Below the pieces are notes generated by a model. The model was not told the DNA's origin and searched no databases. It saw only the letters and a list, made by a program, of their open reading frames with translations. The position numbers and the translations under genes are program-made. A stretch of 64,000 nt of DNA, taken from NCBI GenBank assembly GCA_035236585.1, contig CP141135.1:2638001-2702000 (forward strand), read 5' to 3'. Source of the stretch: Warburgia ugandensis (taxonomy: Eukaryota; Streptophyta; Magnoliopsida; Canellales; Canellaceae). Of the stretch, positions 12,496-48,416 are shown one piece after another (position 1 is the stretch's first letter; every line of letters starts with the position of its first letter).

Positions 12496-12600
<105 letters not shown>

Positions 12601-14207: not shown

Positions 14208-16115
14208 CCCTCCCTGAAACTTGATTTGTCATCCCAAGCATGCTTTTCATCTTGATAAAGTCTTCAAACTTCAATAGCTTAGTAAAAATATCAGTTGCTT
14301 GATCTTGACACTTTACATATTCCAATTGAACTTCTTTTCTTCTGACGCACTCCTTTATGCAGTGATACTGCGTATCAATGTGTTTACTTTGACCATGAAA
14401 GACTGAATTTTTTGCCAGGGCCATTGTCGATTTGTTGTCAATGTAGACCTCGTTGGTTCTTCTTGCGGCATGCCAAGTTCTATTAGTAATCCTTTTAACC
14501 ATATTGCCTGACAAATAATACAAGATGTAGCAGCCGCATACCTTGCTTCACAAGTAGAAAAGGTAACTATTGGTTGTTTCTTTGACATCCAAGTAAAAGT
14601 GGTATCTCCCATGAAGAACACAAACCCGGTTGTGCTTTTTCGATCATCTAAGTCTCCAGCCTAATTGTTATTGCTGTATTCAACAAGCCTACAATCATTA
14701 GTATGAGAGTAAAACAAACCAAAGTCAATTGCACCTTTAATATATCAAAGAACTCTTTTTGCTGTCTTGAGATGAGTGGTTGTTGGTGCTTCCATATAGC
14801 AAATAATTAATCCTACAACATATAGAATATTGGGCCTCATGCAAGTTAAGTAGCGGAAGCTTCCAATCAATCTCTTGAAATTTGTTGCATCTACTCTTTC
14901 TCCTTCATCTTTCTTAGATAGTTTGATTCCACACTCCACTGACTTGCTAATGGGCTTGCAGTCATACATGTTGAACTTCTTAAGTAGCTCCTTTGCATAA
15001 CCTTCTTGAGTGATGAAGATGCCGTTTTCCTTTTGCTTTACTTCAATTCCAAGATAATATGACATGAACTCAATATCAGTCATCTCGAACTCTTTGATCA
15101 TTGCTTTCTTGAATTCTTCAAACATCCTTAGACTGCTTCCAGTGAAGATTAAGTCATCCACGTACAAGCATACAATCAAGATGTCTCCATCTTTGATCTT
15201 GACATATATTGCATGCTCATGAGGGCATCTTGTGAAACTATTTTCTTGAAAATATTTATCTATTCGACTATTCCATGCCCTTGGTGCTTGCTTTAAGCCA
15301 TATAGGGCCTTTTTCTTCAAGGAGTCCATTTAGGAAGGCAGATTTCACATCCATTTGATGAACCTTTCATCTATTTTGAGCAGTTAAAGAAATAATTAAT
15401 TTAATAGTTTTTAAGTGAACAACAGGAGAAAATACCTCGTTATAGTCCATCCCAGCTCTTTGATTGTAGCCCTTCGCAACCAATCTTGTCATGTATCTTT
15501 CAATTTCTCCTTTAGCATTCTTCTTTGCCTTGTATACCCACTTTACACCTATCACCTTGTGTCCTTTCGGTAGTGAAGCCAGTTGCCATGTATCATTCTT
15601 CATGATTGCTTTGATCTCCTCGTCCAAGGCATCTCTCCACCTTTTACTTTGTATAGCTTCTTGAAAACTCAATGGTTCATAATCAGTAAAGAGGCAGAGT
15701 AGGGTGAGATCTTCTTGCCTTTCTGTGACCTCATAGAGCTCTTGTAGGCTTCTTGTAAGTGGTGTCCTTGGACTTGAACTTGATGATGATGAGTCTTCAT
15801 GGTTACTTGAACTTTCACTTGCAGTTAATGAGGTTAGTGGTGTGACGTTCTCTTGTTGATTACCTCTTGTTTGCTCATCTTCATTTTTAGGAAGAAGTTG
15901 TGACTTTCTTCGTGAATGTTCCAATCCCATGAGCTTTCTTCATCAAATTCCACATATCGACTGATAACAGTCTTCTTATTTCTTGGATTGCATAATTTGT
16001 AGCCCTTTAAATTGGAATCATAGCCAATGAAGACAAACTTTTCACTTTTATCATTGAGCTTGGTTCTTCTTTCGTCTGGCACATGTGTATAGGCTATGCT
16101 TCCAAATACCTGCAC
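13784..16115 (-). mobile_element. Copia lineage A: 3' half (integrase C-terminus, RT, RNase H, 3' LTR)
   Basis: Minus-strand fragments in order: integrase C-terminal segment at 15834-16115 (VFGSIAYTHVPDERRTKLN, as in the element at 46.1-46.3 kb); reverse transcriptase at 15367-15640 ([20 protein letters not shown]) and 14745-15329 (ALYGLKQAPRAWN, catalytic CLYVDDL); RNase H at 14194-14620 (VYIDNKSTMALAKN). A polypurine tract (CAGGGAGGGTA) abuts a 424-bp LTR at 13784-14207. Frames are broken. Gag, protease and the integrase core of this lineage are absent; the sequence switches at about 16115 to a different Copia lineage. It is the same lineage as the complete element at 43858-48871. Confidence 0.88.
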
Positions 16116-20140: not shown

Positions 20141-21671
20141 GCTCAGAATTCCAGCAGTGATGTGATAACATTTAAAGTGAAATATATAGAGAAGAAGAGA
20201 GAAAAACTAACACTCAGAGATGCATTCACTTAAAAAAATGCATTGAAAGGAGCCACAAATTGCTCCAAAATTTCGGGCACTAGCCATATTTTAAATGAAG
20301 ACATCATCATCGTAATCAGGAAGCAATAATTATCTCAATGATTATCTCAAATCGCTATTTATAGTTACGAATTACTCTTTTCTTACCTGTCAGGTATGAT
20401 CACATAAGCCTTATAAGCCGTACGCAGAGGCCACTTAATTACCATTTTTGTCCTAATCAGTGTGGAACGATAATAACGTAACCAAACTAGCAACTACTGC
20501 CTTTAGTTGTAAAATGGACACCGAAATTTTTACCATCTATTTTACAATTCATGAAAACAGTATCTAAGGACTACACAATGGATGAGAATATCAGAGCTTG
20601 GCCATTTAAGTCACGGACAATATTGTGAACAATTTGAATTTTCAAAAATCTTACTCCACCAGGAGTTTGATAGGGATTTTGAGAAATCTTACCCCCTAGA
20701 GTTATAGCAGACCGTACTATTTAGTGAGGTGTTAAAGGGCAAAAACAAGGGGTGAAAAAAAGTTTGTCATGCATGAAGGGGTGAACTTCCTCCACACTCT
20801 TGAGCGTGGACTCTTACTAGGACTTATAAATAAATTGTACTTTCTAATCCAATCAAGTATTATTCTTTAATGTATATGACTCCAGTACACTTAATGAAAT
20901 TAGTTGTGTTGATACGCGTCTAAAAATAGGCTTTCACTATGTCACTTGGTACGTATGCAGTCGCATCCAAATGTATGTACTTGTGACTCCATTAAAGAAT
21001 GTATTTGGTGTTTCTAATTGATTATATTTATTTTCTAAAGCGGTGTTGTTTATCTACTTAATCATCGTGAACACAAAAGAAGTTCCAACTCCTGCAAACT
21101 GATGAATTTGGAAACCGTAGATCGCGATGGGCCAAGCTGATTCATTAATGATAATTTAAACTTAAATTCTACTCAAGAGGCTTTCAATGACCAGCTATAA
21201 AACCTCCAAGAGAGAGACACATACACCATCTTAAGTAACCCAACATAATATATGCAAATCAAAAGCACACGGTGATATATAAAATTGCAACTCTCAGAAA
21301 GGCTAAGATTTATACAGGCACACCCAGGACTACAAGTGTACTTACCATAGATCACACTTCAAACTCCAGAACGAAACACTATATTTGGGAAGAACAAAGC
21401 GACTTGACATGGAATGAAACTAATACTTGCTGGCTTGCCGCAGTGCCTTGTTGGATTCATGAACTGGATAGGCAAGCCAACTTAGTTTGTACAACACTAA
21501 ATCACACCACAACATAAGTAGCTGGCTTGACAAACTCTTGGAAGAAAAGATGCGGTTTTCTAAGGCCAAATGCCCCCATTATTTGATTTGATCCCATTTG
21601 TTCATTTTGCAGCACTCCTCTTATTGTCTTCCCTTACCTCAACAAGGCTGTAGGAGCTGCAAGCTCACCAC
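20141..21671. other. Downstream flank of CRK-3, no recognisable gene
   Basis: No coding or RNA feature was recognised. The part next to 21672 must contain the CRK-3 3' untranslated region, but no poly(A) signal can be chosen with confidence. Confidence 0.45.
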
Positions 21672-24600
21672 TCAACGACCCGAGCTCTGGGAGATCGAAA
21701 CAGTGGCATTGGATGCAGGCGACCCAGTGGAGTTGTATGTGTCTCCATTAACTCTAGCGCTAGTATCTATAAAGGTTGGTTTACTTGGCTGCTGTACAGC
21801 GAGATCTTTGCTTAGAAGCAAAACCACAACTTCGGACATTGTAGGCCTTGAAGCAACTGTCGTACTTGTACACCAGAGAGCTATCTCTATAATTCTCTTC
21901 ATTTCCCCTATTTCGTACTCATCTTGATCCAAGCTCCCGTCGACCAAGTTAATTAACATGTCGGACTCGTAAAGTCGCCATGTCTGTTAAACAAGGGAGA
22001 ATCAGCGTGAGTTAAATAAGGTTAGCTGAAAAGATCTGAAATCTTGGAAGCTCATACAATCAAAGAACTCGTATGTAAAAGAAGGACACGGTATCTAACA
22101 AGTGCTCAAATACAATTGAATGAACGGCAGTAGAAAAGCATACTGCAAGCAAGGGGACTAAAAGACAGAGCCGAAGGTCAAGGTTTTCAGTAGAAGTCAC
22201 AGCACCAATAAAATGGCACACTGAAGACTACACATGCTTCACGGTTGTACATTGCTGTACATATTGATTTATGAAATCAAATAACTCTGCACATTTCTTA
22301 ATCATTTAGCTGTCGATAGAGGGGAAGTTAGAAGAACTTCTGAATGAATTACAGGTTAGCTTGGATGAAGAAAAAGCAGGGGAAAGAATTGGACTTCATG
22401 GAAGGAAATATTGTCATAGAAATCTGATGCGTGACTTATTTGGTACAAGCCGATAGAGAGGACAGCAGCTCAATTTCACAAATGACTTCTTATGCAAAAA
22501 TATCAGCATACCTTTTACATTATTATCTCTTGTTTATCGGAGTTGATCTTTTGCCTCAATATGAGTATCTGTTGTTTTGTTTATTTAGATCCAAGCAGTA
22601 CTAGTTCAAAGCATGGCTATTCACCAAAGGTGGTGACACAAAGAACAGGAGTAAAATCAATAACGAAAATAATTACCCATTCAAGAAGGTGTTGTGTGAC
22701 AGGTTCGAACTTTGTATCGATGCTCTTTCTACCACTTATGATTTCCAGGATGACTATTCCATAGCTGTATGTGTCTGCTTTCTCGGACAGCTGCCCATGG
22801 ATTGCGTACTCAGGCGCTGTGTAACCCCTGTCCAACATGACTATGTGAATAGCTCTTGACCAAACTTTACAAGGTATAAGTACTGAAATTTCCTTAGAAA
22901 TGAATAATCTAAGCGTAACTTGGACGATCATTCCAGTTGCACACATGCAGGGATGTATCTTCTCCGTCGATGCAGAATTTAAGATACACAAGGTGAAAAG
23001 GGAAAATTATACTAATGATACTTCCAACTTACAAAGTTCCTGCAAATTTGGTGCTCAAATGACTCTTGTCCTCTGGGAGAAGCTTTGCCAGTCCGAAATC
23101 TGCAATTTTAGCTTGGAAATTTTCATCGAGCAGTATATTACTAGATTTAATGTCTCGGTGTATTACACAGGCATAGAACTCCTCGTGCAAATATGCAAGG
23201 CCACGAGCCGTCCCAATGATTATATCAAATCTCTGTTTCCAGTTAAGAGTTCCTCTTTTCGGACCTGTTTTGCATGATCACACAATTGTATTCAGCACAA
23301 GGCAGGAAAAATGAATGCATTTTTGCTTACCATGTTTGTAACTTCAGATTTGACGCATGTAACTCCATCTGTTAAACAGCATCAGAAATCATTGTTTTAG
23401 CTAATTTTGCTAAGAGAATAACTTACCAAATAAGAATTTGTCAAGGCTGCTGTTCGCCATATATTCATAGACAAGCAACAATTCCGAGCCTTTTTCGCAA
23501 CAACCAAGTAGACGAACAAGATTCCGATGATGGACATTGCTTATAAGCTTCACTTCGATTTCAAAACTTGCCTCAGCTCTGTTGGATTGATCTATCAAAA
23601 GTTTCTTGACAGCCACTGCTTTTCCATTCTTAAGGATACCCTGCAATTGGTACATGGAAGATGTAGATGAAAATATGATCCATTTGAAGCAGTATTACTA
23701 ATTTTCTGACCATCTCCAATTGAAGGGCATTACCTTGTATACATCTCCGAAGCCTCCTCCACCTAATTTGTTATCTTCGCTAAAATTTTTGGTTGCAGAT
23801 TTAAGATCTTTGTAATGGAAATTCACTGGGCCACGCAACTCGGTTGCTCCTAATATATCTTCTGCACAAATAGTAGTAGCTATAGGACATTAGAATATGT
23901 ATCCCGTCAGTATCAAATCCAGCTTACAACTTATTTTGAGATAAATGGTTCTTCGCATCAGCTAGTGCAATCTAAACCATAGTTCCCAGAGACCGGATAT
24001 GGGAACAGAGTCAGAAAGAGAAAAGTTTCCGAAATTCGTCTAGTTTTAACATAATGTTAATTAATTACAATAATTTTTAGATATGAAAATTAGTACATAC
24101 AACAAAATTTTTGAGGTAAAACTAAGAGATCCCTCTTGGGTGTTCGGGGAAAGCACTGGAATGCGCTTCTAAATAAAAGTGGTTCAGTACCAGTTTCTTA
24201 TATGGAAGTGTTCAATTGCCAAAATGAAGTTTTCCTGGTTACAGTGATTTAAATGGAAATTCTGAACATCATAGCACGTGATCATACCTTTAACAGGCTT
24301 CTTACTCTTTGTAGATCTCTGATTTACTAACACGTATAATAGAACAAGAAAAGAAACAAGGCCAACTCCTCCAGCAACACCTGCTACAATGGCAATCCTT
24401 CTGTTGCGCGAACTTCCTATGAAATAGTTAATTTTCGTTATCGACAATCAAGAGTTCTCATACAGTAGATGCAGGTATATTCATTTGGAAATTATCTGCG
24501 GTCAAAAGTACAAATTGGGATCTACAATTTGAATGATTCAGACCATTCGTCTAGTGGAGCTTCGCTATGGATGGGTCAAAATGACTTGGATCATTAAAAA

Positions 24601-25583
24601 GAGTAAGTTCCACTGGTTCTCTTGAGCCAGAAAATGATAAATGCGAGTGCGCCCTAAGCATATCCACATCAGTCTAAAGTCTGGGCATTTCAACTGATTT
24701 ACCAGCATCTGGTTGAAACACCACACCTGGAATTTAGGTTGACATGGATGCATAGTGCGCACTTGACATGGATAAATTGTAAGCATGGACTAACGAACCT
24801 GTCTCAAGAAAGGGTCCAAGATCCCTCGTGAAATTCCGGCTAAAGAAGGCAAAATTGGAGTACCGCATAAAGCACCCCCCATCCACAGCTCTTCCCTGTG
24901 TGTACTGCCCACACGCTCTTATATTGTTATAAGCCACTGTCAAGCAGTTCCTACACCCATCCTCAGTAGCCGTGCGTGTGCACTGTGCCAGGCCATGAAC
25001 TGCGCTCCTACCACTCCCCCTAGTTGCCACAGCAAAGTATCCTTCCATCCTTGGTGTAGCTTTGGAAAGATCCGCCATCAACCCATCCATGATCAAAGAC
25101 GAATGGTTTGAGGCCCGCGCGGTATCATTACCACAGACCAGGGCATTTCCTGTGAGAACTGTGTCACTGAAGAAGGCAAGGCTTTCGTACCTGAGAAAGC
25201 ACCCGTCTAAGATGACCCGGGCTCCGTTTGAACCTGCATTGGTGCAGTTTCCAATATCTACGCGAGCTCTCGAGAAGCAAGAGAGGCAATCGCTGAGGGA
25301 GAGATAGTCTCTGCACTGGAATAAGGCGTAGACGGGGGTTCCCTGCTCGGACACGTTGGGCAGTGGCAAACCGTGCGGAACCGTTGATTTGGGATCGGAG
25401 ATCGGAGTAGGTGTCGTTGAGATTTGTGAGGAAGACGGAAGGATCAGAGGCGTTGTATGAGCTGCAACCTCGGTTGATAAGATTTGCTTGAGGGGTGGAC
25501 GTAGCAGGGTTTACAAATAGGAGGAGAGTGATGGAGGAGAATAAGAAAAAGATATTGGCGTCTTTGGTTTGTCTTAGTTGCAT
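21672..25583 (-). CDS. CRK-3: cysteine-rich receptor-like protein kinase, seven exons, one frameshift
   Basis: Exons: 24799-25583, 24288-24416, 23734-23861, 23427-23640, 23033-23264, 22677-22827, 21672-21983, all with GT-AG borders. The product would be a plasma-membrane Ser/Thr receptor kinase of about 649 residues, normal for the family: signal peptide (hydrophobic [16 protein letters not shown]), two DUF26 domains with C-X8-C-X2-C ([26 protein letters not shown]), a membrane helix in exon 2, and a kinase with [31 protein letters not shown] and APEY. All catalytic residues are present and it is an RD kinase. Start chosen at 25583, the Met directly before the signal peptide. One extra base in a C5 run (25334-25338) shifts exon 1 between GN and PVYALFQC; removing it makes the seven exons divide exactly into 650 codons. 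It is either a very young pseudogene or a sequence error. Ligand and partners are unknown. Confidence 0.88.
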
Positions 25584-25728
25584 GTTTGGAGTTTGGTTTT
25601 GAGAAGAACCCAAGTATGAAGTGTAAGAATCAAACCTCAAGATGACGAAGGGGAAGGAAGAAGGAAATACATGCAGCAACAAGAGATCTGCAAGAATTTA
25701 CGTAAGAATTTGAGACAGCTAGCAGAGA

Positions 25729-27430: not shown

Positions 27431-27774
27431 AGGCCAAACAAAAAGGGAGAACAGAAGAAGATAGATGCATAAACAGAAACAAGTGAAGTAGGTACCATTG
27501 CTAGAAAATGAATAAACAAGGTTCTTTAAGTAAAAAAGAGCTTCTAAATCTAGCATTTGAAGTGTGAAGGAACGGGAAGAGATTACAACCTCAATTAACA
27601 CTTAAGAGCTGCAGTCACTCAATCGGACTCGTCAAGTTGCAAATTAGTCGGCCATTTGCTGTATTTATAAGAAGAGGTTGGGGAGTCGAAATTGTGGAGT
27701 CAACAAAGGAAGAGAGAGAGAGAGGGAGGTAAATGTGTATTGGCTGGAAGTGATGATGGAATGTGACGAATGAG
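27431..27774. other. No recognisable feature
   Basis: Short spacer between the Mutator-like element and the tandem array. It includes a short AG-rich tract near 27710-27727. Open frames here have no domain. Confidence 0.45.
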
Positions 27775-30700
27775 AAGAAAGTTTTGTTTAAACTAATTTC
27801 AGGTATCTTTGGATGAAGTAAAGGGTTAGGGGTCATTGACCAAAATGTGTTACAAATTACTTAGGTATGACTTATTAGGATTTGAAGTCAATAGAGAGGA
27901 CTTGAACTAGAAGAGGAGACTTGGCACAACAATTGAGTTGTTGCTGTGTGACCTAGAAGTTATGGGTTTGAGGTGTGGAAATAGCCTCCAGCAAAATAGA
28001 AGGTAGGGCTGCATACTATAGGCCATTTGTGGTTTGCCCCTTCCCTAGACCCTGCATACACGGTAGCTTAAAGCACTGGGCTACCCAGAGAGGTCGTCAA
28101 TGCTAGTAGTTGGGAAGATTTTGATTCTTAATAGTTCAAAGAACCAAGGACTAAAATGAAAGTGCTTTTGTAACTAAAAATGCAACAGTCTGCAAATGTA
28201 AAAAGTGATATTTCATCCAGTCTATTCTTAAGTATTGGAGAAGTAAGAAGAAACTTTTATTTAAACTAATTTCAGGTATCTTTGGATGAAGTAAAGGGTT
28301 AGGGGTCATTGACCAAAAGGTGTTACAAATTTCTCAGGCATGACTTATTCGAATTTAAAGTCAATAGAGAGGACTTGAACTAGAAGTGGAGACTTGGCAC
28401 AACAACTGAGTTGTTGCCGTGTGACTTAGAAGTTATAGGTTATAGGTGTGGAAATAGCCTCCAGCAAAACAGATGGTACGGCTGCATACTATAGGCCATT
28501 TGTGGTCTGCCCATTCTGCAGACCCTGCAGACACGGTAGCTTAATGCACTGGGTTACCCAGAGAGGACTTCAATACTAGTAGTTGGGAAGATTTTGATTC
28601 TTAATAGTTCAAAGAACTAATGATTAAATGAAAGTACTTTGTAATAGAAAATACAGCAGTCTGTAAATGTAAAAAGTGATATTTCTTCCAGTCCCTTCTT
28701 AAGTATTGGAGAAGTATGAATTTTTTTTTATCTAAACTAATTTCAGGTATCTTTAGATGAAGTAAAGGGTTAGGGTAATTGACCAAAAGGTATTACAAAT
28801 TTCTTATGCATGACTTATTTGGATTTAAAGTCAATAGAGAGGACTTGAACTAGAAGAGGAGACTTGGAACAACAATTGAGTTGCTACCGTATGACCTAGA
28901 AGTTATGGGTTTGAGGCGTAGATATAACCTCCAGCAAAATAGAGGGTAAGGCTGTATACTATAGGCCAGTTGTGGTCTGTCCCTTACCCAAACCCTACAT
29001 ACACGGTAGCTTAATGCACCGAGCTACTCAGAGAGGACTTCAATACTAGTAGTTGGAAAGATTTTGATTCTTAATAGTTCATAGAACCAAGGACTAAAAT
29101 GGAAGTACTTTTGCAACAGAAAATGCAGCAGTCTACAAATGTAAAAAGTGATATTTCTTCTAGTCCCTTCTTAAGTATTGGAGAAGTAAGAAGAAACATT
29201 TATCTAAACTAATTTCAAGTATCTTTAGATGAAGTAAAGGGTTAGGGATCATTGACCAAAAGGCGTTACAAATTTCTTAGGCATGACTTATTCGGATTTC
29301 AAGTCAATAGAGGACTTGAACTAGAAGAGGTGACTTGGTACAACAATTGAGTTGTTGCCGTGTAACCTAGAAGTTATGGGTTTGAGGCGTGGAAAAAGCC
29401 TCTAGCAAAATAGAAGGTAAGGATGCATACTATAGGCCATTTGTGGTCTGTCCCTTCCCCAGACCCTGCATACACGGTAGCCTAATGCACAATGTACCCA
29501 GAGAGGACTTCAATACTAGTAGTTGGGAAGATTTTGATTTTTAATAGTTCAAAGAACCAAGGACTAAAATGAAAGTACTTTTGTAACAAAAAATGCAGTA
29601 GTCTGCAAATGTAAAAAGTGATATTTCTTCCAGTCCCTTCTTAAGTATTGGAGAAGTAAGAAGAAACTTTTAACTAAACTAATTTCAGGTATCTTTGGAT
29701 GAAGTAAAGGGTTAGGGGTCATTGACCAAAAGGTGTTACAAATTACTTAGGCATCACTTATTCGGATTTGAAGTCAATAGAGGGGTCTTGAACTAGAAGA
29801 GGAGACTTGGCACAACAATTGAGTTGTTGCCTGTGACCTAGAAGTTATGGGTTTGAGGCGTGGAAATAGCCTCCAGCAAAATAGAAGGTAAGGCTGCATA
29901 CTGTTGGCCATTTGTGGTCTGCCCCTTCCCCAGACCCACATACACGGTAGCTTAATGCACCATGTACCCAGAGAGGACTTCAATACTAGTAGTTGGGAAG
30001 ATTTTGATTCTTAATAGTTCAAAGAACCAAGGATTAAAATGAAAGTACTTTTATAACAAAAAATGCAGTAGTTTGCAAATGTAAAAAGTGATATTTCTTC
30101 TAGTCCCTTCTTAAGTATTGGAGAAGTAAGAAGAAACTTTTATTTAAACTAATTTCAGGTATCTTTGGATGAAGTAAAGGGTTAGGGGTCATTGACCAAA
30201 AGGTGTTACAAATTACTTAGGCATGACTTATTCGGATTTGATGTCAATAGAGAGGACTTGAACTAGAAGAGGAGACTTGGCATAACAATTGAGTTTTTGC
30301 CATGTGACCTAGAAGTTATGGGTTTGAGGCGTGGAAACAGCCTCCAGCAAAATAGAAGGTAAGGTTGCATACTGTAGGCCATTTGTGGTCTGCCCCTTCC
30401 CCAGACCCTGCATACACAGTAGCTTAATGCACCGGGCTACCCAAAGAGGACTTCAATACTAGTTGGGAAGATTTTGATTCTTAATAGTTCAAAGAACCAA
30501 GGACTAAAATGAAAGTACTTTTATAACTGAAAATGCAGCAGTCTGCAAATGTAAAAAGTGATATTTCTTCTAGTACCTTCTTAAGTATTGGAGAAGTAAG
30601 ATGAAACTTTTATTTAAACTAATTTTAGGTATCTTTGGATGAAGTAAAGGGTTGGGGGTCATTGACCAAAAGGCATTACAAATTTCTTAGGCATGGCTTA

Positions 30701-32173
30701 TTCGGATTTGAAGTCAATAGAGAGGACTTGAACTAGAAGAGGAGACTTGGCACAACAATTGAGTTGTTGCCGTGTGACCTAGAAGCTATGGGTGTGAAGT
30801 GTGGAAATAGCCTCCAGCAAAATAGAAGGTAGGGCTGTATACTATAGGTCATTTGTGGCCTGCCCCTTCCCTAGACCCTGCATACACGGTAGCTTAATGC
30901 ACTGGGCTACCCAGAGAGGACTTCAATATTAGTAGTTGGGAAGACTTTGATTCTTAATAGTTCAAAGAACCAAAAACTAAAATGAAAGTACTTTTGTAAC
31001 AAAAAATGCAGCAGTCTGCAAATGTAAAAAGTGATATTTCTTCTAGTCCCTTCTTAAGTATTGGATAAGTAAGAAGAAACTTTTATCTAAACTAATTTCA
31101 GGTATCTTTGGATGAAGTAAAGGGTTAGGGGTCATTGACCAAAAGGTGTTACAAATTACTTAGGCATGACTTATTCAAATTTGATGTCAATAGAGAGGAC
31201 TTGAACTAGAAGAGGAGACTTGGTACAACAATTGAGTGATTGCCGTGTGATGTAGAAGTTATGGGTTTGAGGTGTGGAAATAGCCTCCAGCAAAATAGAA
31301 GGTAGGGATGCATACTATAGGCCATTTGTGGTCTACCCCTTCCCCAGACCTTGCATACACGGTAGCTTAATGCACTAGGCTACCCACTGAGGACTACAAT
31401 ACTAGTAGTTGAGAAGATTTTGATTCTTAATAGTTCAAAGAGCCAATGACTAAAATGAAAGTACTTTTGTAACAGAAAATGCAACAGTTTGCAAATGTAA
31501 AATGTGATAATTCTTCCAGTCCCTTCTTAAGTATGGGAGAAGTAAGAAAAAACTTTTATCTAAACTAATTTCAGGTATCTTTGGATGAAGTAAAGGGTTG
31601 GGGGTCATTGACCAAAAGTTGTTACAAATTTCTTAGGCATGACTTATTCGGATTTGAAGTCAATAGAGAGGACTTGAACTATAAGAGGAGACTTGGCACA
31701 ACAATTGAGTTATTCCCGTGTGACCTAGAAGTTATGAGATTGAGGTGTGGAAATAGCCTCCAGCAAAATATAAGGTAGGGTTGCATTCTATAGGTCATTT
31801 GTGGTATGCCCCTTCCCCAAACCCTGCATACACGGTAGCTTAATGCACCGGGCTACCCAGAGAGTACTTCAATACTAGTAGTTGGGAAGATTTTGATTCT
31901 GAATAGTTCAAAGAACCAATGACTAAAATAAAAGTACTTTAATAACAGAAAATGCAGCAGTCTGCAAATGTAAAAAGTAATATTTCTTCCAGTCCCTTCT
32001 TAAGTATTGGAGAAGTAAGAAGAAACTTTTATCTAAACTAATTTCAGGTATCTTTGGATGAAGTAAAGGGTTAGGGGTCATTGAACAAAAGTTGTTACAA
32101 ATTTCTTAGGCATGACTTATTCGGATTTGAAGTCAATAGAGAGGACTTGAACTAGAAGAGGAGACTTGGCACA
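27775..32173. repeat. Tandem array of about 471-bp units (about 9.3 copies), each with a SINE-derived segment
   Basis: The landmark ATTTCAGGTATCTTTGGATG (with small variants) begins at 27796, 28269, 28740, 29212, 29682, 30152, 30622, 31095, 31568 and 32041, giving periods of 470-473 bp. The array breaks off at GAGACTTGGCACA (32173). Within every unit a segment of about 180 bp matches the Au SINE in order: box A-like head, GTGTGACCTAGAAGTTATGG (box B region, TGGGTTTGAGGC), AATAGCCTCCAGCAAAAT, GGCTGCATACTATAGG, CCCCTTCCCCAGACCCTGCA and a terminal GGGCTACCCAGAG. The other 290 bp is unrecognised. Copies differ by scattered substitutions and small indels, and no unit is coding. In effect it is a small satellite built on a SINE insertion. 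Confidence 0.93.
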
Positions 32174-34024
32174 TCATGCGTTTTCGGAATAATATCAATA
32201 GTTGAACAAATCAAATGAACGTGTAAGAACAAATATGTGTTCGCATGGTTGTTCTAACTCACAGTGAGGCGCAGCCTACTGCTGCTGTCTCGTGTTTCTT
32301 AAAGGCCGCTAACCCTTCCAACTGAATTTCTGGCACAATTGGTTTGTCGGCCACTGTGAACAGTGAATGCCCTAAAAAAATGTTCTTTAGTGGAGGATGC
32401 TAACCATTGACCCTTAATCCCATGAATAGGAGGATAATACCTTTCTAAAAATACCCAAATGCAGGATCTCAGCCATGTCCTACGCTGACTTTAAAAACAT
32501 ACCCGTGTTGAAAATTCCAACACCCTAGCATTAGAATGTTCAGAGTTTTGACCCGCCACCGAACCAGCTCAAGTGCATGTGCTAATCCGCCAAGGTTTTC
32601 TTTGAAGATTTGTTTATTATATTAAGCACGATTGGACCCGCTCAAAGCCTCAAACAAGTAGACAATAATCCAGTACATCATCACCATTCCATGAGTTAAT
32701 TAATCTTTTTAGCGTCATAACAGATATGGCGGCAGATATGGCGGCTAAGGACTTAATTATTAGTGAAACTGTAGTTAAATGGTAGGAGGCGCCTCCTCTA
32801 AGCGGGTCGCAGGTTCATGATAGCACTTTCTTCGCTGTTGGGGAGATTTCAACTTAGATTTAGGAATAGGATAACGTGTTAGCCAGTGGTTTGCTTAGAA
32901 AAAATACAATGAAACCAGCTAGCTCAACGCCGCAAAGGACGCTGCAAATGTCAAGCCCAGCTCCAGTGGGGACTTGCCCCTCAATGTAGCAAAGTCTGCC
33001 ATTAAGTCTGACAGGCCTCACCGAACACGGACCTGCTATTTGCAGCCCCTTACGGCAGCTTCATGTCATTTTCGAAATACGACATCCAATTCCACAGGTA
33101 ACAAGTGTGGCCGGCCCATTGTACATTGGGGTAGGCCCTGCTGATTTACGGCTTCCTATTTGAAATCCGGGTTCAGTATCCGTCTGGCACTTTTCTGCGT
33201 CCGGCTCGCTCGTCTCTCATTTTATCAGGGAGAGGGCCCCTATTAGTAAGTTTGCAAGGAGGTTCGCAGAAATAACCAATAATAAGACGATTCATGTATT
33301 GACATTTTATGCCTATTTCCATTGGTGTGGATCTCAATCAAGAACTACGAAGAAAAAAGAAAGATTCGTTTGCTTGCCTCCTTCCAGCCCATAATGCCTA
33401 ACTATTATGCCCCCTCGCTTCAGGGGGGAGAATTGAAGAGTTTATGTGAGATAACATACAAATACTCCAATAAAATAATGTCTAAGTAGTGTGCTTAAGT
33501 TTTTAATGAGCCGGCCGATAGCAGAGAAAATAATCCTTCGGAATAATGCTTAATGGAAAGGTTGCTCAACAAAGCAAATGTCTTGCATTTCTTCTCAGAA
33601 ACAAACAAAACAATAACCACGATAATAAGAAAAATTAATCATAAACTATAGGCCTCCTGTGGTTTTATACGTATTAGTCGTGAAAATCAATTGAATAATG
33701 GAAAGATAACGTCGGAGTTCTTAAAGTCATACCTGGAGTTCCAAATTTGTCATTCTCAACGTATTGACCAAGTCCTAAAAATCATAATAACTAAACCTGA
33801 TCTGAAAAAGTCTCATAAGATTTTGATAAGTTGTCTTACCCACATAGTAAAGTTCAAGTTATTATTTTTGGTCTAATAAATGGATCCCAAAGATCTTCAG
33901 AAGATGCTTTCCTTTTTATTTCTTGCATGCCTCCTTTAAGCAAATTATATTTATTTATTTGAATAATTCATCTTCTACATTTTCTTCCTTTAAAGTAAGG
34001 ATACACGAGTTACACGCTTGCAAA
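32174..34024. other. No nuclear gene recognised; part resembles organelle-type DNA
   Basis: The composition changes at about 32880-33440 to more GC-rich, low-bias sequence (for example CCGGCCCATTGTACATTGGG near 33111 and GGGAGAGGGCCCCTATTAG near 33227). Such texture is common in plant mitochondrial DNA, but I identified no mitochondrial gene. The remainder is AT-rich. The segment near 32500-32600 resembles 40500-40600 (TGTTGAAAATTCC-AACAC followed by ACCAGCTCAA), an old duplication. Confidence 0.35.
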
Positions 34025-34629
34025 TCAACGACCAGAGTGATGGGTGATCGATAAGACGGCATTGGATGTAGATGACCCAGTGGAAGTGGATGCGTCGCCA
34101 TGAACTCTGTTGGTGGAGTCTATAAAGGTTGGTCTGTTTGGCCTCTGCATAACTGACGCTTTGTTGAGCAACGAAACCACAACTTCAGACATTGTAGGCC
34201 TTGAAGCAACCACTGATTGAGTACACGAGAGAGCTATCTCTATAATCCTCTCCACTTCAGCCTTTTCTGTATCATCTAGTTCCAAGTTCTCATCCACTAA
34301 ATTCAACAACTTGTCCGACTCATATAGTTTCCATGCCTGTTAAACAATGCAGCTAATAAGCATATGTATTTGGTCAAGTTGATCGAAAAAAACTTGATTG
34401 GTCCTAGTCAAATGAAGAATCTAATAACTCATAGACGTCACTTTTCTAAAATTTCATTTGAAGTTTGGTCAAATAGAATCTGAACAAAGCAGTAGCGAAT
34501 CATGCTGCAAGGAGCCTTGAAGATGAAGTAAAGGCCTTCTGGTGAAGTAGAGCAAGAAGGCCCTCTCCTGTGGCTCGAGGTAATCGTGGGTGTGTGTGTT
34601 CAACATTCAGGAAAAAAAAGGAGAGAGAG

Positions 34630-34965
34630 AGCCTGAAAGTTAAAGCAGCATACGATCACTATGAAATGCACTTATCAGTGTATGAATATAGCCCATATGG
34701 GTGTATTAATGCATAAAATTAAACAACTTAACTGGACTTCCTTGGTATTCAAGCAGTAATTACAATAGTAGTGACAAGGAACTGAAACAAAAAGCAGAAT
34801 CAAGTCGTGCTGCAAGTAGCCTGAAACTTTGGAGCAGCATAAGATATATATGAGATGTTCTGACCGGTATATGAATATAGCACATGTCGGTCTGTGTTTG
34901 TGTCAATGTAGATAATTAAACCACTTAGCTGGAGTTTCTTCATAGCTAAGCAGTAAATAGTGCAG
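34630..34965. repeat. Imperfect tandem duplication in CRK-4 last intron, period about 189 bp
   Basis: GCCTGAAA at 34630 and 34819 starts two alignable copies sharing AGCAGCATA, TATGAATATAGC and AATTAAAC blocks and a GCTAAGCAGTAA/TCAAGCAGTAA block. It lies inside the intron between exons 7 and 6 (34337-35377) and partly explains why that intron is longer than the 693-bp counterpart in CRK-3. Confidence 0.65.
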
Positions 34966-37900
34966 TAGTTGGATATAACTGCAACTTCATTGCAACAAAT
35001 TACAGCTTAAGCTTAGGCGGAGAAGAACTTGAGGAAAGGTCACGAAGCCAAGGAAATGGTTTCACAGAGTTATGACCCTTGACTCATTTAAGTTAGAGAC
35101 ATTAGAAGGGCTAGACGAAGCCAACTCAATTATACAAGAACAATTTTATCAAAAATATTACTTTGAGTGAAACTGGTTTCCCTTTCTGATCATTGTTTCT
35201 TCTTGATTCAGGATGACTTTGTTTCCAAAAAAGAAGGTCCCCGCTACTTAAGTTTTAGGAACATTATTAGTTACAGGTATCACCAACATCCATCTGCTAA
35301 TAAGGTGGTCAGCTTCTCATTGAGACGATAACAACATCACAAGAAATGAGAGAAACTTAGTTACTGCAAATAATTACCCATTAAAGGAGGTATTGGGTGA
35401 CTGGTTCAAGCTCTGCATCATTTGTCCATCGGCCACTTATGATTTCCAGTATGACGACGCCATAGCTATACGTATCAAGCGTCTCAGATAGCTGTCCGCG
35501 GATTCCATACTCTGGGGCTGTATATCCTCTATCCAACAGGATAATATCAACAGCATTTAAGATGTAGGTACTAAATTTTCTAAGCACAGACACAACTCAT
35601 TGACCCTTTGAATAGTCATTCAAGCACCAAATGCATGTGGAGAATTAAATCATTTATAACAGCTTCTGTGCATTCTAGCATTGTTCTTAATCAGTGAAAA
35701 GGTATATACAGGGAAAAAGATGAAAATACTCGATAAGTTCATACAGTTCTGAATCTTGACTTACAAGGTTCCCGCAAATTTAGTGCTCATATGACTCTGG
35801 CCCTCGGGAAGAAGCCTCTCGAGTCCGAAATCTGCAATTTTGGGCTGCAGCTCATCATCAAGGAGGATGTTACTAGATTTGATATCTCTATGAATTATAC
35901 AGACATGGAATTCCCTGTGCAAGTATGCAAGGCCTCGCGCTATACCGACAATGATGTCAAATCGTTGCTTCCAGATAAGGCTTCCTCGTCTCTCACCTGT
36001 TATGCATGGAACCTAACTTTGTTCAGCGTAAAGCACAAAAGTAGGGCCACTTCAGTATTATGTTTGTAATTTCAAGATGACATACATGGCTTGAAATGAT
36101 TATTTTAGCTAGGTAATTATATAGGAATCACGAAACATGGAAAACTGAGATTATGTTTTATGCACATATGATAGGCAATGTACTAAGTAATATTTTGAAT
36201 CTTTCGACTCATGATGTCAGCCGAATCTTAAAGCACAGTCTGGCATAGTTGCTTCTATTCAACAGAAATCTCCAATCATCCATACAGTAATCTAGCTACA
36301 TTAGGAAAATGATAATACCAAATAAGAAGTTGTTAAGAGTGCTGTTTTGCATGTATTCATAAACAAGCAGCATTTCCGGGCCTTTTCCGCAACAACCAAG
36401 CAAACGAACAAGGTTCCGGTGATGAACTTTACTTATAAGCTTCACTTCAGCTTCAAAACTTTCCTCCGCTCTACTTGCTTGGCTTATCATGAGTTTCTTG
36501 ACTGCTACAGTTTTCCACTTTTAACAACACCCTGCAATTAACAAAGGAAGATCCATCCATCATATGTACAATCAAGTAACTCATCTTCTATTCAATCAAA
36601 TATTAATATTCTTTCTTAAATAAAAGAATGAATTTTCACGTAGCAACAATTAATTTCTTGATATTCACCAATTCGAGCACCTTACCTTGTACACATCTCC
36701 AAAACCGCCTTCACCCAATTTATTTTCCTCACTGAAATTTTTTGTTGCAGATTTAAGATCTTTGTATTCAAAATTTACTGGCCCACGCAGCTCAGTCGCC
36801 CCTAGTACGTTTTCTGTAGAGGAAATAACAGGTATAGCATGTCAAAAATGCTATTGTCCCAAGTATCCAATCCAACTGAAGCAAGTGAAATTCAATGGTT
36901 CCGGTCCTCATAGATTCTTTTGAGAAAAACAAAGGTGGTCTTACGGGCGTTTAATCAAGAGAGATTACAGAAATTCAATTCCCTCTTGATATAACCCATC
37001 GAAAATTCACCCACTGAAGAATGCTAAATAACAGAAATTTTAGATTCCAAGTAGAATAGTAGAATCATGACCTGAGGAATCTAGCATTATGAGTTTCACC
37101 TACAGGTGAATTCATGAATGCATTCCATGCGAACGTAAAAATTGTGCAATCCTCCATAGGAATCAATTCAGTCTTGACTAGTGGCCCATAGTATATATGC
37201 AATCTTCTCTTTCATTGTAGAATTGAAGGAATGTTAAACTTATGCAAATGTAACAGCACTTACTTTCCCACATCTTCCTCCTTTTAGATCGTCTACGAAG
37301 GAGAAACAACAGCAGACTGATGGACAAAAGAAAGCCAGCTCCTCCAGCAACACCTCCAATGATAGCGCCCCTAGTTTGGGAACCTTCTATGGATACAAAT
37401 TCATTCATAGAAATCATTAAAACAGTTCAGTTGATCCAAGGAGTAGGAAGGTCATATCTTAGGGGCTGTTCTATGATGGATGTCATGATCTAAATTCAAA
37501 AAGTAAAGTTGTTGTTAGAAATTCTGAAAGAGTTTGCGGACAATATTGAACTATGGGGACTCCCTGACTATAACTACTAGAGACATCACTCTTGGATGAT
37601 TCAAACTGCCCTTCTTCCAGGCCCATTCTTAGATAGACAATGCCTCGAAATTCTCTTCGGTTGCAAAAAATGAGTTGTAAAACATGTTTTGAATGAGTTT
37701 AGAGGGTGGTGCGCATGAGTGTAGAAGTTATTGTACCACAACGTAAAACGGACCATCGTACAAACTTCTCATGCTTAGACCACCTACCTCTCCTCAAAAA
37801 AGGAGCAAGATTTGTCGTGAAATTCTCACTAAAGAATGCTGTATCTGAGTACCTCAAGAAACATCCAGCATCCACAGATCTAGCCTGCACATCCCTTAGG

Positions 37901-38179
37901 CAAGCCTGTATGTTCCCATATGCCACATTCAAGCACACCGCACACCCACTTACACTCACCGTGTGCACACACTGAGCCACACCGTAGACGACATTCCCAC
38001 CACTCTCCCTCTTTGCAGCAGCAAAATAACCACGCATCTTTGGTGTAGCATCAGAAAGGTCTGCCAATAGTCTGTCAGCAACGGAACGAAATCCATGGCT
38101 TTCCGATGCAGTATAATTGTAACAAACCGGAACGTTGCCTAGGAGAGTCGAATCATTGAAGAAGGAAACGCTCTCATAC

Positions 38180-38752
38180 CTGTTACACTTGCGAGATAAA
38201 TCAAGCTTTGTCTTCGGTTAATTGTAAAGAGAGACATAACACAATTGGAAGGCAATGAATAAAACATGAACTCGAGCTAGCATATTTGCAAGATTAATAA
38301 AGGAATGCTACAGGAGCCGACTGCCCATTGATCTGATATCACGAATGAAGATATCTTGTAGCCCAAAAATCACAGCCATTTGATGATAGTGCCGCCCAAA
38401 ATCTGTGTTATGGTAGTTGAATGTAGACCTTCGTTTATACAAGGATTTTAATCATTTGTTTCCAGTGACCAAGATTTGGGCTACCAGAGGTGGGGCCATC
38501 ATATAAAAGCAGGAGTCCAAAGGGGCAGCCCTGGTACACAAAGCTCTCGCCTATGCAGGGTCTAGGGAAGGGGCGGACCACAAGGGCCTAAAGTACACAG
38601 CCTTACCTTGCATTTTAAGAGAGGCTGTTTCCACGCTTTGAACCCGTGACCTCAAGGTCACATGACAACAACTTTTATTGTTACGCCAAGGCTCTCCTTC
38701 AAAAGCAGGAGCCCACGGGAGCATATTGTTGGCCCTGCTACTAGTGTAATAG
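38180..38752. mobile_element. MITE-like insertion in CRK-4 exon 1, with splice-competent borders
   Basis: The insertion has short inverted ends, CTGTTACACTTG at the left and CTATTACACTAG read inward from the right, and is flanked by the 3-bp direct repeat TAC (38177-38179 and 38753-38755). It interrupts the DUF26-1 coding sequence between CFLR and YES. The host exon is otherwise continuous across it, as comparison with CRK-3 shows (CFLRYES with no intron). The interior has a pair of opposed GTAGCCCAAA segments (near 38372 and 38475) that would fold back. A SINE with its own target duplication is nested at 38519-38700. The superfamily is uncertain: a 3-bp duplication is seen in CACTA and PIF/Harbinger types, but the ends fit neither well. 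Confidence 0.65.
38519..38700 (-). mobile_element. Au-type SINE nested in the MITE-like insertion
   Basis: Reading the minus strand from 38700: box A-like AGCCTTGGCGTAACAATAAA, box B-like GGTCACGGGTTCAAAGC, then the GCCTCTCTTAAAATGCAAGG, GGCTGTGTAC, CCCCTTCCCTAGACCC and GGGCTGCCCC blocks in order. Target duplications are AAAAGCAGGAGTCC (38505-38518) and AAAAGCAGGAGCCC (38701-38714), 13 of 14 identical. It is one of the best preserved SINEs in the window. Confidence 0.92.
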
Positions 38753-39151
38753 TACCTGAGAAAACATCCGTCGTAGATTACTCGGGCCCCATTAGCAAAC
38801 TGTGCAGTGCAGTTTCGGATCTCTACCCGGGCCGTGGAGAAGCAGGACAGAATCGGAGAGGGAGAGATAGTCTCTGCATTGGAACAGTGCATAAACTGGG
38901 CTAGGGGGCTGGAGGCTTTGGGCCGTGGCAAAGCTTACTGACCCATTAATTTGTGATCGAAGTTCGGAGAAGGTGAGATTGAGGTTGGAAACGAAGATTG
39001 ATGAGCTGTTTGCAGTGTAGTCGCTGCAGCCTTGACTGAGGAGATTGGTCTGTGGGGTTGACGATGCTAAGGTTGAGAAGAGGAGACCAACAATGAACAA
39101 GAACAGGGAGGATGAGAAGATGTTGGTGGTATTGTTTTGTTTTGCGTGCAT

Positions 39152-41559
39152 CTTCGGGACTTCGGTTTGATACAATAAACAGAAAGAAGAAAAGCAAGGT
39201 GCATAGACGAAGATAACGAAGGACAAGCAGCCGAAAATCTGCTGGAAATTTGTTGAGAGAATAAGAAAACTGTAAAGATCTGTAATAAGTAGATAATGGA
39301 AAATGGACCACAATTTCAGCTGTACGTGGATTGAATATGGAGGAATTTTACTTATTGAAATCTGTTAATGAAGCAAAGTATACGATCAGAAAGAGGAGAA
39401 AGGAGAGACTGAATGCATGGGTAACATGTGAGTGGATCATCGACTGGAAAGTATGCAGAAACCAAGTTACTCGTTCAGTCGATGCACAGATTTGGAACCG
39501 CGAATTTCTCAGGCTGCAGAAAATTGGGCCATTTGCTAGTTAAACTGAGAGATTCGATTGTAATCATAGAGTAAATGGAGGAACGGAAAGCAAGAATGAG
39601 ACGGGCGTTGACATATTATAAAATCAACTCCGGAAGCCGTTGTTTATGGTTGTTCGTGATAGAAATATTAGGGAGAAAGGGTCGTTCTTGTGGTGGTTGG
39701 CTTGAATGATGAGAAATTTAATAGCAAAACGATCATTAGAAATTGTATGGTTTTTTATCAGGGTAAAACTTGGTGTGGCTCAGTCATTGCTTATCCATTC
39801 TAGAAAGCCTCTTACATGGGCCACCCGCGCTAAATGTCAAGAGCTGAAGTGGTAGTGGCCCCATTAACAAATATAATCGGTTAGATTTAGGCTCAGATTT
39901 TGGTGATCAATGCCGCTCATCCATTGGATGGTCCTAGGCTTTGCTGTTCTCAGATACATGATGGACAGCTCAAAACTTTAAAAGACAAATGGCATAAAGA
40001 ATTCACTGATGCATGTCATGTGGGTATGCATATCTAAAGAGTCCTGAGGAATATAAATGGTTTTGATCCCAGAAAATTGGATCCGCTCGTACTTTTTAGC
40101 TGCCAAGTTGAACCACAATCCCACCCAAACTATCCTCCAAATTGGCCAAGGTTTTATTAGTGGTTTTGAATCTTCTAAGCCATCCATATTACACACTGAA
40201 GTATCTGAGGAGGAAGATCGCTAAAGAGATCAACGGCTTAACCACCATTAAATGCTAATCATTGAATTAATTACTCGCTTGAACACCGTATAAAAAATCT
40301 TGACTCATAGGCTACAGAGCAGATCTATAGCTACTTGGAAATATATGAAGTCACAATTATTCCAGATGAATTCTGGAGACCAACTTGTTGCAGGAATGCA
40401 AATAATGAATCCGTCGGCGACGGTGAATTCCTGAAGTGAATAGAGGGTCCTAATCATTGATACGTTGACACAGAATCTTTTATCTTTAAATACAACATCC
40501 TATTGTTGAAAATTCCCAACACTCTGGCTAGCGTCAGAATATTTTAGCTTCACCCATCAAAGGACCAGCTCAAAGACACTGGCCGGCAGGTCAAACACAT
40601 AGGTCACTCAATAAATCTGTGAAACGATTTGACTAAAATCTCCATTTTACATCATCAAACGTGTGGGATATACCCATTTCTTAGTTACTCTTATTAAACC
40701 CCATAATGGACTTGAAAGAGCTTTTAACAGCGTCCAACATTTATCTATATTGTAGTATAAATAGTAGAAGATTTTCTGCATTCTCATTGATTCTAGATAC
40801 CAAATAGGCACGAACAATTTAGTACAAAATTTCATTTTAGAAAATAAAAAAATTTCTGCTTAACCCTCTATCTTAATTGCTTAAACGGTTACCCTTTTCA
40901 GATGCCTGAACTGCTAGCTCTTTTTCTCTCTTCAAAATTCCTATTTAGTTACAAATTTATAGCCAACATTAAGCTCTTTAAATAGAATTTTATATGTAAT
41001 ACTAAAATGTTTTATGTATGTATATCTTAAATAATGTTTATAAATATATTATAATAATATATGCATTTATAATAATCTGCAAGGGACAAATGCTAGTTAG
41101 TTATAATAGGAAAGCTCGCTAAACGACAGTGGACCACTTTTGAGTGTTGGGTATAGCATTTGAAAGAAGCCGTTCATATGACTGCAACTCTTTGCGTGTC
41201 TTAAAAAAAAATGCTGATTGAGTGATCCTAGCATCCTAATTAATACTTTTGTTCACAGGAAAAGAACGGGTTTTAGGAGGTTCATAATTTCTTCAAGAGA
41301 TGATCAAATCCAAACCAATTAGATGATTGGGTTGGATCATCAATAGGTGGAAACCAACATGGCCTGCTCTTCTCCCATCAATAAAATTTTATCAATTCTT
41401 CTTCTTCGAAAAATAAGGTTTCTACAGGTATGAAGCACAAGTGCGGACAGGAAGTGGCAACGGAAACAAATAGAGCTCCCCGACGTGAGGAAAGAGTCTT
41501 ATATAGCATCAGTTTGACGAGCTGTGATGGTAACCGATCTCATTGCACCAAATGGCCGA
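39152..41559. other. Upstream flank of CRK-4, no recognisable gene
   Basis: No gene, RNA or mobile-element protein was recognised. Short open frames at 39331-39543 (plus), 39978-40196 and 40647-40835 (minus) have no domain. Sequence near 40500-40600 is an old, diverged partner of 32500-32600. Confidence 0.45.
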
Positions 41560-42015: not shown

Positions 42016-42186
42016 AAAAAGGGCAGTCCCAGTGCACTAAGTTCCCGCGTATGCGGAATCCCGGGAAAGGGCAGATCACAAGGGTTAGTAGTACGCAGCC
42101 TTATCTTGTAGTTTACAAGAGGCTGTTTCCACTCCTTGAATCTGTGATCTCAAGGTCGCACGATGACAGCTATACCATTATGCCAA
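42016..42186 (-). mobile_element. Au-type SINE, diverged
   Basis: Plus-strand order from the left is the reverse complement of the SINE: AAAAAGGGCAGTCCC, GTGCACTAAGTTCCCGC, GGGAAAGGGCAGATCAC, GTACGCAGCCTTA, AAGAGGCTGTTTCCAC, the box B region (TTGAATCTGTGATCTC) and the box A region ending TATGCCAAAA. AATGTT flanks both sides (42009-42014 and 42189-42194) and could be part of a target duplication, but this is weak. Confidence 0.82.
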
Positions 42187-43857: not shown

Positions 43858-44336
43858 TGTTGGAAGAGAGAGGTATTTACAAAACTTTGAAGAAGGCTTT
43901 TTGTGGCTGAAAAGTATTTAAAAAGGAAGAAGGGATTTGAAGACTTGAATGGAGGAGAGAGCTTATAGTAATTCATAAGCTTTGGCTTAATACAAAAGTG
44001 CGAGGAATCATCTCTATTTATACTAGTGGCACGTCTTAACCAATGGTTAGGATTGTGCCAACACACTTCTAATCTAATTGTTATAAATGACTTTGTAGAA
44101 AACTCTTCAAAAATATCCTACATATTACATCATTCTTTACATCATCTTTTCTAGATATGTTTTACTTCTTACATCATCATTGACATCGTCATCTTCTAGA
44201 TATCTTAGATATTTTTTACTATATATTTGTAATATTTCTAGAATTTCTAGGAAGTCTTCTAGAAATAGACCATGCGCTTGAACCAACAAATTGATTCTCT
44301 TAGCCCAATGAGTCAAATCAAGTTTATCCTCCAACA
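43858..44336 (-). repeat. 3' LTR of the Copia element
   Basis: Begins TGTTGGAAGAG and ends CCTCCAACA on the plus strand (479 bp), an inverted terminal pair with TG...CA. It is bordered internally by a polypurine tract read on the minus strand as AAGAGGGGG (44337-44345). Confidence 0.9.
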
Positions 44337-47300: not shown

Positions 47301-48400
47301 GTGACATGCCCATTTACTTGATCCATCTCCACAAACATGTTCTTATCTCCACTCATGTGATTACTTGCGCCGGTGTCTAAGTACCATATACTTTTCTCTC
47401 CTAATTCTTCTTTGTGGTTAGCAATCAGTAAGGTGAGCTCCACTTTATCTTTCATCTCCATGTGATTAGCTTTCTCATTCACATGATTAGTGGTTCTACA
47501 TCAGGAAGCATAATGTCCAAATTTATGAAAATTGTGACATCTAACTTATGATTTGTCATACCTTTGATTATTGTTTCCTCTTCTACGACCTCTTGAAGGT
47601 TGATAGCTTTGTATCCTTTCCTTAATGTTGGATTGATTATAGCCATTTCTACCACCTCTTCCTCAGCCTTGGCCTCGACCTTGAGTATAATTATGACCAT
47701 GTTCTCTATTTTTGTCATTTTCAAACCTATCGTCTCTTTCTTTGAATGAGAGTTTTGATTAAAGTGCCTGCTCCAATGGGTCTTCTTCTTTTTTAACCTT
47801 TCTTCATGGGCTTGTAGTGAACCCATGAGTTGATCAATAGTTATGGAGTCTATGTCTTTAGACTCTTCTATGGCAATAATAATATACTCAAAATTTGATG
47901 TTAATGAACGAAGAATTTTCAATCACTCTTGTATCATTTAAGCTCTCTCTATTTATTTTCATTTCATTAACAATAGTCAAAACTCTACAGATTCCTCCAT
48001 ATGTAATTTTTCAAACTCACTTCTTAGAGTTTGAAGATGTACCTTTTTTACCTTGTCGATTTCCTTATGAGCGTTGTGAAGAATCTCCCATGCTTGCTTG
48101 GAGGTGGTCGTATTTGCAACCTTCTCAAACATATCTTCATCAAGGCATTGATAAATGAGAGTAAGAGCTTGTTTATCTTTCTTCTTAGCCTTTTGCACAG
48201 CCGCCCTTTGGGTAGGAGTTAAAGAAGTCTCATTTTGAGGTTCTTCATAACCTTTCTCAACATTCTCCCATGCCTCTTGGGAACCCAGTAACACCTTCAT
48301 GCTAATACTCCAACTTCCATAGTTGTCTTTGGTGAGTCGAGGAAATTGGAAGGGAACCATTCCACTTGCCATCTTTTTTCTCCACAACAGGAATGAACCT

Positions 48401-48413
48401 GGCTCTGATACCA
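48401..48413 (-). other. Primer-binding site (initiator Met-tRNA)
   Basis: Minus-strand TGGTATCAGAGCC, the standard Copia primer-binding site complementary to the 3' end of initiator Met-tRNA, 3 nt from the inner edge of the 5' LTR and about 30 nt before the gag ATG. Confidence 0.92.
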
Positions 48414-48416
48414 CTT

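Follow-up and report, generated by a model that had tools for sequence, protein, structure and literature searches.

How does a dispersed mobile element come to occupy the same place in every unit of a short tandem array? The question is raised by a locus of Warburgia ugandensis (Canellaceae; assembly GCA_035236585.1), which lies in a stretch of 64,000 nucleotides from contig CP141135.1 (positions 2,638,001 to 2,702,000, forward strand; this whole stretch is called the window, and positions are counted from its first letter). Between two receptor-kinase genes of the CRK type, the window contains a 4.4-kb array in which each full unit holds a short interspersed nuclear element (SINE). The explanation that we regard as highly probable is a silenced local tandem duplication, which carried the SINE as a passenger after a single insertion of an Au-like SINE, and whose copies later decayed almost independently of each other.

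Tandem Repeats Finder reported 27773-32173 as the one dominant tandem array in the window, with a period of 473, 9.3 copies, 91% matches and a score of 7248. Cutting it up gave nine full units, each 470-474 bp long, and an incomplete tenth (156-159 bp) that stops at 32173-32176; in terms of the unit, the array opens at phase 1 and closes at about phase 156-159. Each unit has a SINE part of 173-176 bp (176 of the 473 bp in the consensus unit) and a host part of about 297 bp. The nine full units differ from each other by 8.7% on average, the least different being units 5 and 6 (4.7%) and the most different units 3 and 8 (12.5%). In the 500 bp on either side no significant homology to the unit was found, and a continuation of the array into its flanks was rejected. 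The array and its parts, with the target-site duplications described below, are as follows.

27773-32173, plus strand: whole array, nine full units and a partial tenth (Tandem Repeats Finder; unit alignment)
27773-28245, plus strand: unit 1, 473 bp; SINE 27911-28086, target-site duplications 27893-27910 and 28087-28106
28246-28716, plus strand: unit 2; SINE 28384-28559, exact 11-mer in both duplications
28717-29188, plus strand: unit 3, the most diverged; SINE 28854-29029, exact 11-mer in both duplications
29189-29658, plus strand: unit 4; SINE 29325-29499
29659-30128, plus strand: unit 5; SINE 29797-29969
30129-30598, plus strand: unit 6, nearest to unit 5 (4.7% different); SINE 30267-30442
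30599-31072, plus strand: unit 7; SINE 30737-30912, exact 11-mer in both duplications
31073-31544, plus strand: unit 8; SINE 31210-31385
31545-32017, plus strand: unit 9; SINE 31683-31858
32018-32173, plus strand: incomplete unit 10, made of the left host part, the 5' target-site duplication (32138-32155) and 18 bp from the start of the SINE, followed by unrelated sequence

The key to the order of events is the scar of the insertion. In the unit consensus the SINE takes positions 139-314, with AGAGAGGACTTGAACTAG at its left border, AGAGAGGACTTCAATACTAG at its right border and a target-site duplication on either side. The duplication contains the exact 11-mer AGAGAGGACTT and, allowing one mismatch and an indel of two bases, extends to about 18 bp. 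When placements were drawn at random from this window, with the array left in, 118 of 200,000 draws gave an 11-mer match within 40 nt. Both copies of the duplication, with the SINE between them, are found at the same place in all nine full units, and in three of them (units 2, 3 and 7) both 11-mers are exact. Since nine of nine units share the insertion site and the partly decayed duplication, one insertion followed by amplification is the economical reading, and a single retroposition most likely preceded the amplification of SINE and host DNA together. The duplication at the SINE borders also marks the SINE and the host DNA as separate units. Besides, the array starts in host DNA and ends about 18 bp into the tenth SINE, which argues that the SINE was a passenger and not the engine of the amplification.

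The SINE has relatives elsewhere in the window. With one unit as BLAST query, four matches were obtained outside the array at E up to 1e-3, at 683-814 (plus), 38700-38532 (minus), 42136-42032 (minus) and 55439-55379 (minus), all of them inside unit positions 145-311. A profile made from the four dispersed copies matched all nine array units (E 1.5e-26 to 1.6e-37) and picked up a further fragment, while a profile that also includes the array consensus gave no match at E up to 10 in the reversed window. In total five SINE loci exist outside the array within the 64 kb, and the three long ones match over 171-174 bp.

656-829, plus strand: dispersed SINE copy A, flanked on both sides by ACTTGGAGGTC (11/11 by inspection), ending in a T run
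38519-38690, minus strand: dispersed SINE copy B, with the near-duplicate GGRCTCCTGCTTTT on both sides (13/14 by inspection)
42016-42186, minus strand: dispersed SINE copy C, with a T-tail and a weak repeat, no clear target-site duplication
55377-55450, minus strand: dispersed SINE fragment D (BLAST and profile)
7901-8003, plus strand: decayed SINE fragment (E 1.1e-13, dispersed-copy model)

The flanks of copy B are GGGCTCCTGCTTTT and GGACTCCTGCTTTT, and its end, read by eye, is CCCCTTT. The target-site duplications of copies A and B are evidence that is independent of the array.

These results agree with most of what the initial annotation had described from the sequence alone. It had counted about 9.3 tandem units at a spacing of 470-473 bp, each with a SINE segment of about 180 bp in 290 bp of host DNA, and the measured values lie close to these figures. 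Its proposal that a host segment with one SINE insertion was amplified as a whole is borne out by the common site and duplication in the nine units and by the significant match to dispersed copies, which are copies from this window and not a published consensus. With this match, the lack of SINE similarity that it had named as refuting its proposal does not apply. CRK-type genes were found on both sides, where it had placed them.

To which family the SINE belongs is answered less firmly. It looks Au-like, a tentative assignment based on size and on the T-tails of the dispersed copies, not on a consensus alignment. A printed Au consensus was not found in the open-licence PMC text. The Au SINE is 181 bp long and has polymerase III boxes, as SINEs generally do (PMC5787218), and Au-like SINEs have a T tract at the end (PMC3747384). 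Here the three long dispersed copies match over 171-174 bp, and copies A and C end in T runs. The array copies (173-176 bp) differ in that the T-tail and the C of box B are lost. They are dead SINE copies, which leaves their membership by descent unaffected.

The decay of the promoter was examined with consensus motifs of box A and box B. It turned out that GTTCRA (box B) is present in none of the nine units and in two of the four dispersed copies, and the aligned C of GGTTC, kept in all four dispersed copies, is lost in all nine units, where unit 2 has A instead and the other eight have T. At the expected place, eight units show a box-A-like match that carries two mismatches, while unit 3 has one elsewhere only; the pair of intact box A and box B is thus not found in the array copies. 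No array SINE has a T-tail (9/9 units), the consensus CTACCC running directly into the right duplication. Beyond the SINE, eight of the nine units reach their first T4 run about 30-35 bp downstream, at unit position 344-347, and unit 7 about 80 bp downstream, at 394, so polymerase III products would be short. Polymerase III transcription of the units is unlikely judging from these motifs, and polymerase III activity was rejected on the loss of box B. Three points of the initial annotation change accordingly: a usable promoter in every unit is not supported by the remnants that it saw, the recognisable tail is absent (the SINE ends in ...TACCC and the duplication begins at once), and in its recognisable box A/box B region box B is damaged in all nine units.

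Coding potential was rejected, the longest stop-to-stop frame that overlaps the array being 81 amino acids (partly in the flank) and the longest wholly inside it 78. There was no Rfam match to the array up to E 1, ARAGORN with the bacterial code gave 0 tRNAs, and an exact-pattern scan of viral contigs for the SINE core had 0 matches. The array is probably without function now.

Where does the host DNA come from? Apart from the array itself, the 64 kb contain nothing closely similar to the host part, the best BLAST matches being 26 bp (E 0.002) and 43 bp (E 0.007). For the left host part, nhmmer found one distant paralogue.

22339-22467, plus strand: distant paralogue, without a SINE, of unit positions 15-133 (left host part); it lies in the left CRK-type gene, in its 3' part

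The E value was 9.3e-7 with the left part alone and 2.1e-6 with the joined flanks, and the best reversed-window controls for these searches were 0.13 and 0.42; none of 2000 base shuffles was as good, the region having been chosen beforehand. The paralogue sits between the kinase open reading frames (ORFs) and the presumed last exon of the gene; it is free of SINE sequence, and AGAGAGGAC occurs just once where the insertion point would be. For the right host part, this region offers no significant paralogue (381 of 2000 shuffles as good). A third paralogue is hinted at by 34935-35158, but only marginally, since 3 of 2000 shuffles score as well against the host part. As a separate observation, the presumed 3' introns of both CRK genes, 22294-22503 and 34935-35158, contain a stretch with 61% similarity; the left one holds an exon-like open frame of 48 amino acids on the opposite strand, which is broken in the right one. 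Four plus-strand ORFs in or near the host paralogues had no Pfam match up to E 10, and a PDB search with one of them returned just two designed proteins (E 1.6 and 4.1).

How the units have diverged was read from their alignment, which has 107 singleton and 33 informative columns. FastTree gave internal branches of at most 0.0095 and terminal branches of 0.027-0.083, and the distance between units does not rise significantly with their separation (r 0.16, a value reached in 4435 of 20,000 permutations), on which a clustering of the tree by array position was rejected. The tree of the units comes close to a star but shows some additional structure. Part of the structure is local: units 3-6 have the commonest state of the dispersed copies at SINE alignment columns 84 and 117, where units 1-2 and 7-9 differ, and units 4-5 have a small block in common. 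The shared states in units 3-6 are a trace of local exchange or of stepwise growth.

The mutations themselves are unevenly distributed among cytosine contexts. Relative to the consensus, transitions in the host DNA hit 21 of 126 CHG sites and 31 of 762 CHH sites (Fisher p 1.4e-6), and in the SINE 15 of 135 and 29 of 619 (Fisher p 0.007), p values that are optimistic because shared mutations were counted once per unit. A pairwise count over all 36 unit pairs gave 246/1639 for CHG and 577/10636 for CHH. The same count in five pooled pairs of CRK exons showed no CHG excess (22/206 vs 90/664), and three other control pairs have 8 to 24 CHG sites each, too few to judge. Methylation of plant repeats of the CMT3 type would leave CHG-biased decay, and the excess of C-to-T change at CHG sites suggests that the array may have been methylated in the past.

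From these pieces the following history can be proposed. An Au-like, tRNA-derived SINE inserted once into non-coding DNA between the two CRK-type genes, and the sequence shows both this insertion and the duplication of some 18 bp that it left at the target site; target-primed reverse transcription, the established enzymology of SINEs, would have been the route. In a later step, tandem duplication took in about 473 bp, composed of the complete SINE, its two duplications and about 297 bp of host DNA, as the present structure shows; the mechanism was most likely replication slippage or template switching, followed by unequal exchange up to 9.3 copies. After that, the copies would have diverged almost independently of one another, apart from a little local exchange within units 3-6, and the mutation pattern points to CG and CHG methylation at the locus during this divergence.

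Several observations weigh against this history or loosen parts of it. The number of units is not whole, and one simple duplication does not explain both ends of the array; one end may have been trimmed by a later deletion, or a partial repeat may have been present in the seed from the beginning. In six of the nine units one copy of the target-site duplication is changed. The family model is not fully independent of the array, for copies A-D were found by the array-unit query and aligned with the array rows. Of 167 sites compared between the consensus of the array SINE and that of the four dispersed copies, 41 (24.5%) differ, and the units depart from the array SINE consensus by 6.4% on average; the two target-site duplications, however, differ by just one mismatch and a two-base indel in about 18. 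With so few differences between the duplications, much of the 41 may be subfamily divergence rather than a measure of the interval between insertion and amplification. A raised rate of CG transitions is not peculiar to the array, for the CRK exon pairs have it as well (19/114, vs 82/474 in the array pairs), so that CHG alone sets the array apart. As for the near-star tree, pure star simulations average 24.4 informative and 135.9 singleton columns and reach 33 informative ones in only 31 of 1000 runs, while a neutral coalescent is only weakly disfavoured, with a fraction as low as the observed one in 57 of 1000. Neither extreme is therefore firmly excluded, and a single burst is not proven.

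The last two figures bear directly on the view that the array grew by ongoing unequal crossing-over and conversion, in concerted evolution like a true satellite. The shortfall of the star, the coalescent unrejected at the 5% level and the shared states of units 3-6 and 4-5 speak for it, and the very short internal branches and the absence of a significant relation between distance and similarity speak against it; we consider it rather unlikely. Another view takes the 473-bp unit as a known, longer repeat, either composite in nature or a genuine satellite spread over many loci, with this array as one member. That part of the host DNA has a distant paralogue fits such a repeat, but the 64 kb hold no close host copy outside the array, and the target-site duplication separates SINE from host, which makes the idea distinctly unlikely. 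An artefact of assembly would be a natural suspicion, tandem arrays being prone to misassembly, but units that differ by 4.7-12.5% and carry 107 singleton columns are not assembly stutter of identical copies. Stutter is ruled out, and an artefact of any kind almost certainly is not the explanation.

The remaining view gives the array an activity. Polymerase III starting at each SINE, or else read-through, could produce transcripts of it, and small RNAs from it could silence or regulate the neighbouring CRK genes; the initial annotation had similarly suggested that it seeds transcripts or small RNAs. The nine promoter remnants, with a box-A-like match in eight, would suit this, and the CHG-type mutation pattern fits a history of RNA-directed or CMT3-type methylation. 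Against it, however, stand the loss of the box B C in all units, the lost T-tail, the T4 runs soon after the SINE and the empty Rfam search, and on these sequence features we find such activity very unlikely, leaving the suggestion unsupported. The silenced tandem duplication with its passenger SINE is the reading that we prefer.

The neighbouring CRK-type genes are the following.

21672-25697, minus strand: left CRK-type gene; Stress-antifung (PF01657) ORF 24734-25510, kinase ORFs between 22617 and 23694
34025-39364, minus strand: right CRK-type gene; Stress-antifung ORFs 37699-38217 and 38792-39364, kinase ORFs 35761-36012 and 36296-36520

In the left gene the Pfam scan covered the Stress-antifung ORF up to 25510, with an overlapping ORF reaching on to 25697, and the last exon, 21672-21986, was placed by its similarity to 34025-34339, without a Pfam match. 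The ORF 34025-34339 itself has no Pfam match; similar DNA occurs at 21654-21994 behind the left gene and in three further places, and from its translation the ORF is presumed to be the C-terminus of the right gene's kinase. The array begins 2.1-2.3 kb upstream of the left gene. Its distance to the 3' end of the right gene is about 1.85 kb if 34025-34339 is the last exon, and 3.6 kb by the Pfam-supported exons alone. Ten ORFs in the flanks had no Pfam match up to E 0.1. SINE copy B (38519-38718 region) lies between the two Stress-antifung ORFs of the right gene, apparently inside the exon that codes for the extracellular domain, and this gene is probably a pseudogene or carries a SINE-altered exon.

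Other repeats were also seen in the window. A Copia-like long terminal repeat (LTR) element occupies 43858-48871 on the minus strand, with an integrase core (rve) in 46423-46878 and direct repeats at 43858-44336 and 48417-48871 that are 87% alike; a relative of it, with an RVT_2 match, is at 14745-15329. A perfect (GA)48 microsatellite at 12501-12596 lies about 90 bp from a 218-bp duplication (12006-12409). On the minus strand, 57524-59071 contains ORFs that may be reverse-transcriptase fragments of a long interspersed nuclear element (LINE); two of them were scanned, without a Pfam match.

Is such an array new? SINE-derived satellites were known before. According to PMC10702118, the SINE-derived satellites of squamates (sSats) are tandem arrays with SINE sequence, which have few to many units and reported mean unit similarities of 63-97%. 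They are like the Warburgia array in that their tandem units contain SINE sequence and are less homogeneous than those of typical satellites. However, sSat units are parts of SINEs, 67-215 bp long, in which no more than some tens of bp have an unknown source, and occur at many loci (PMC10702118), whereas the Warburgia unit comprises the SINE in full, the target-site duplication on either side of it and about 297 bp of host DNA, at one locus seen, in a plant. An sSat unit is made essentially of SINE, and here the SINE share of the unit is well short of that. The same paper lists amphibian SINE-like tandem families with a tRNA-related segment, namely Hy/polIII, Xenopus OAX/satellite I and Cynops PolIII/TAN, the first two of which are also tabulated in PMC9659126, where many transposon-derived tandem repeats are reviewed. 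The SINE origin of the amphibian families is judged inconclusive there (PMC10702118), while that of the Warburgia array is documented by the target-site duplications and the dispersed relatives. Searches of the open-licence PMC text for SINE satellites in plants gave none, which does not show that no plant case is in print. The array differs from earlier cases by its complete SINE body, its scar and its mostly host DNA. Satellites form long head-to-tail arrays; the units here are head to tail and 91% alike, yet there are only 9.3 of them in 4.4 kb, and "satellite" is a generous label for a single low-copy locus.

What does the locus mean for Warburgia? One speculative idea, to which we give very little probability, is that the array is a methylated, CHG-marked heterochromatin island, nucleated by the nine SINE copies upstream of a CRK gene, which would suppress that gene or recombination in the CRK cluster. 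If this were true, the copy number of the array would vary between plants as a regulatory variable number tandem repeat. The array is probably inert functionally, and its general interest is correspondingly modest. Its value lies in being an unusually readable case of mobile DNA that became tandem DNA, in which the scar, the dispersed relatives, a distant SINE-less paralogue and nine diverged copies are all found in one 64-kb window, and in which the order of insertion and then amplification is well supported.

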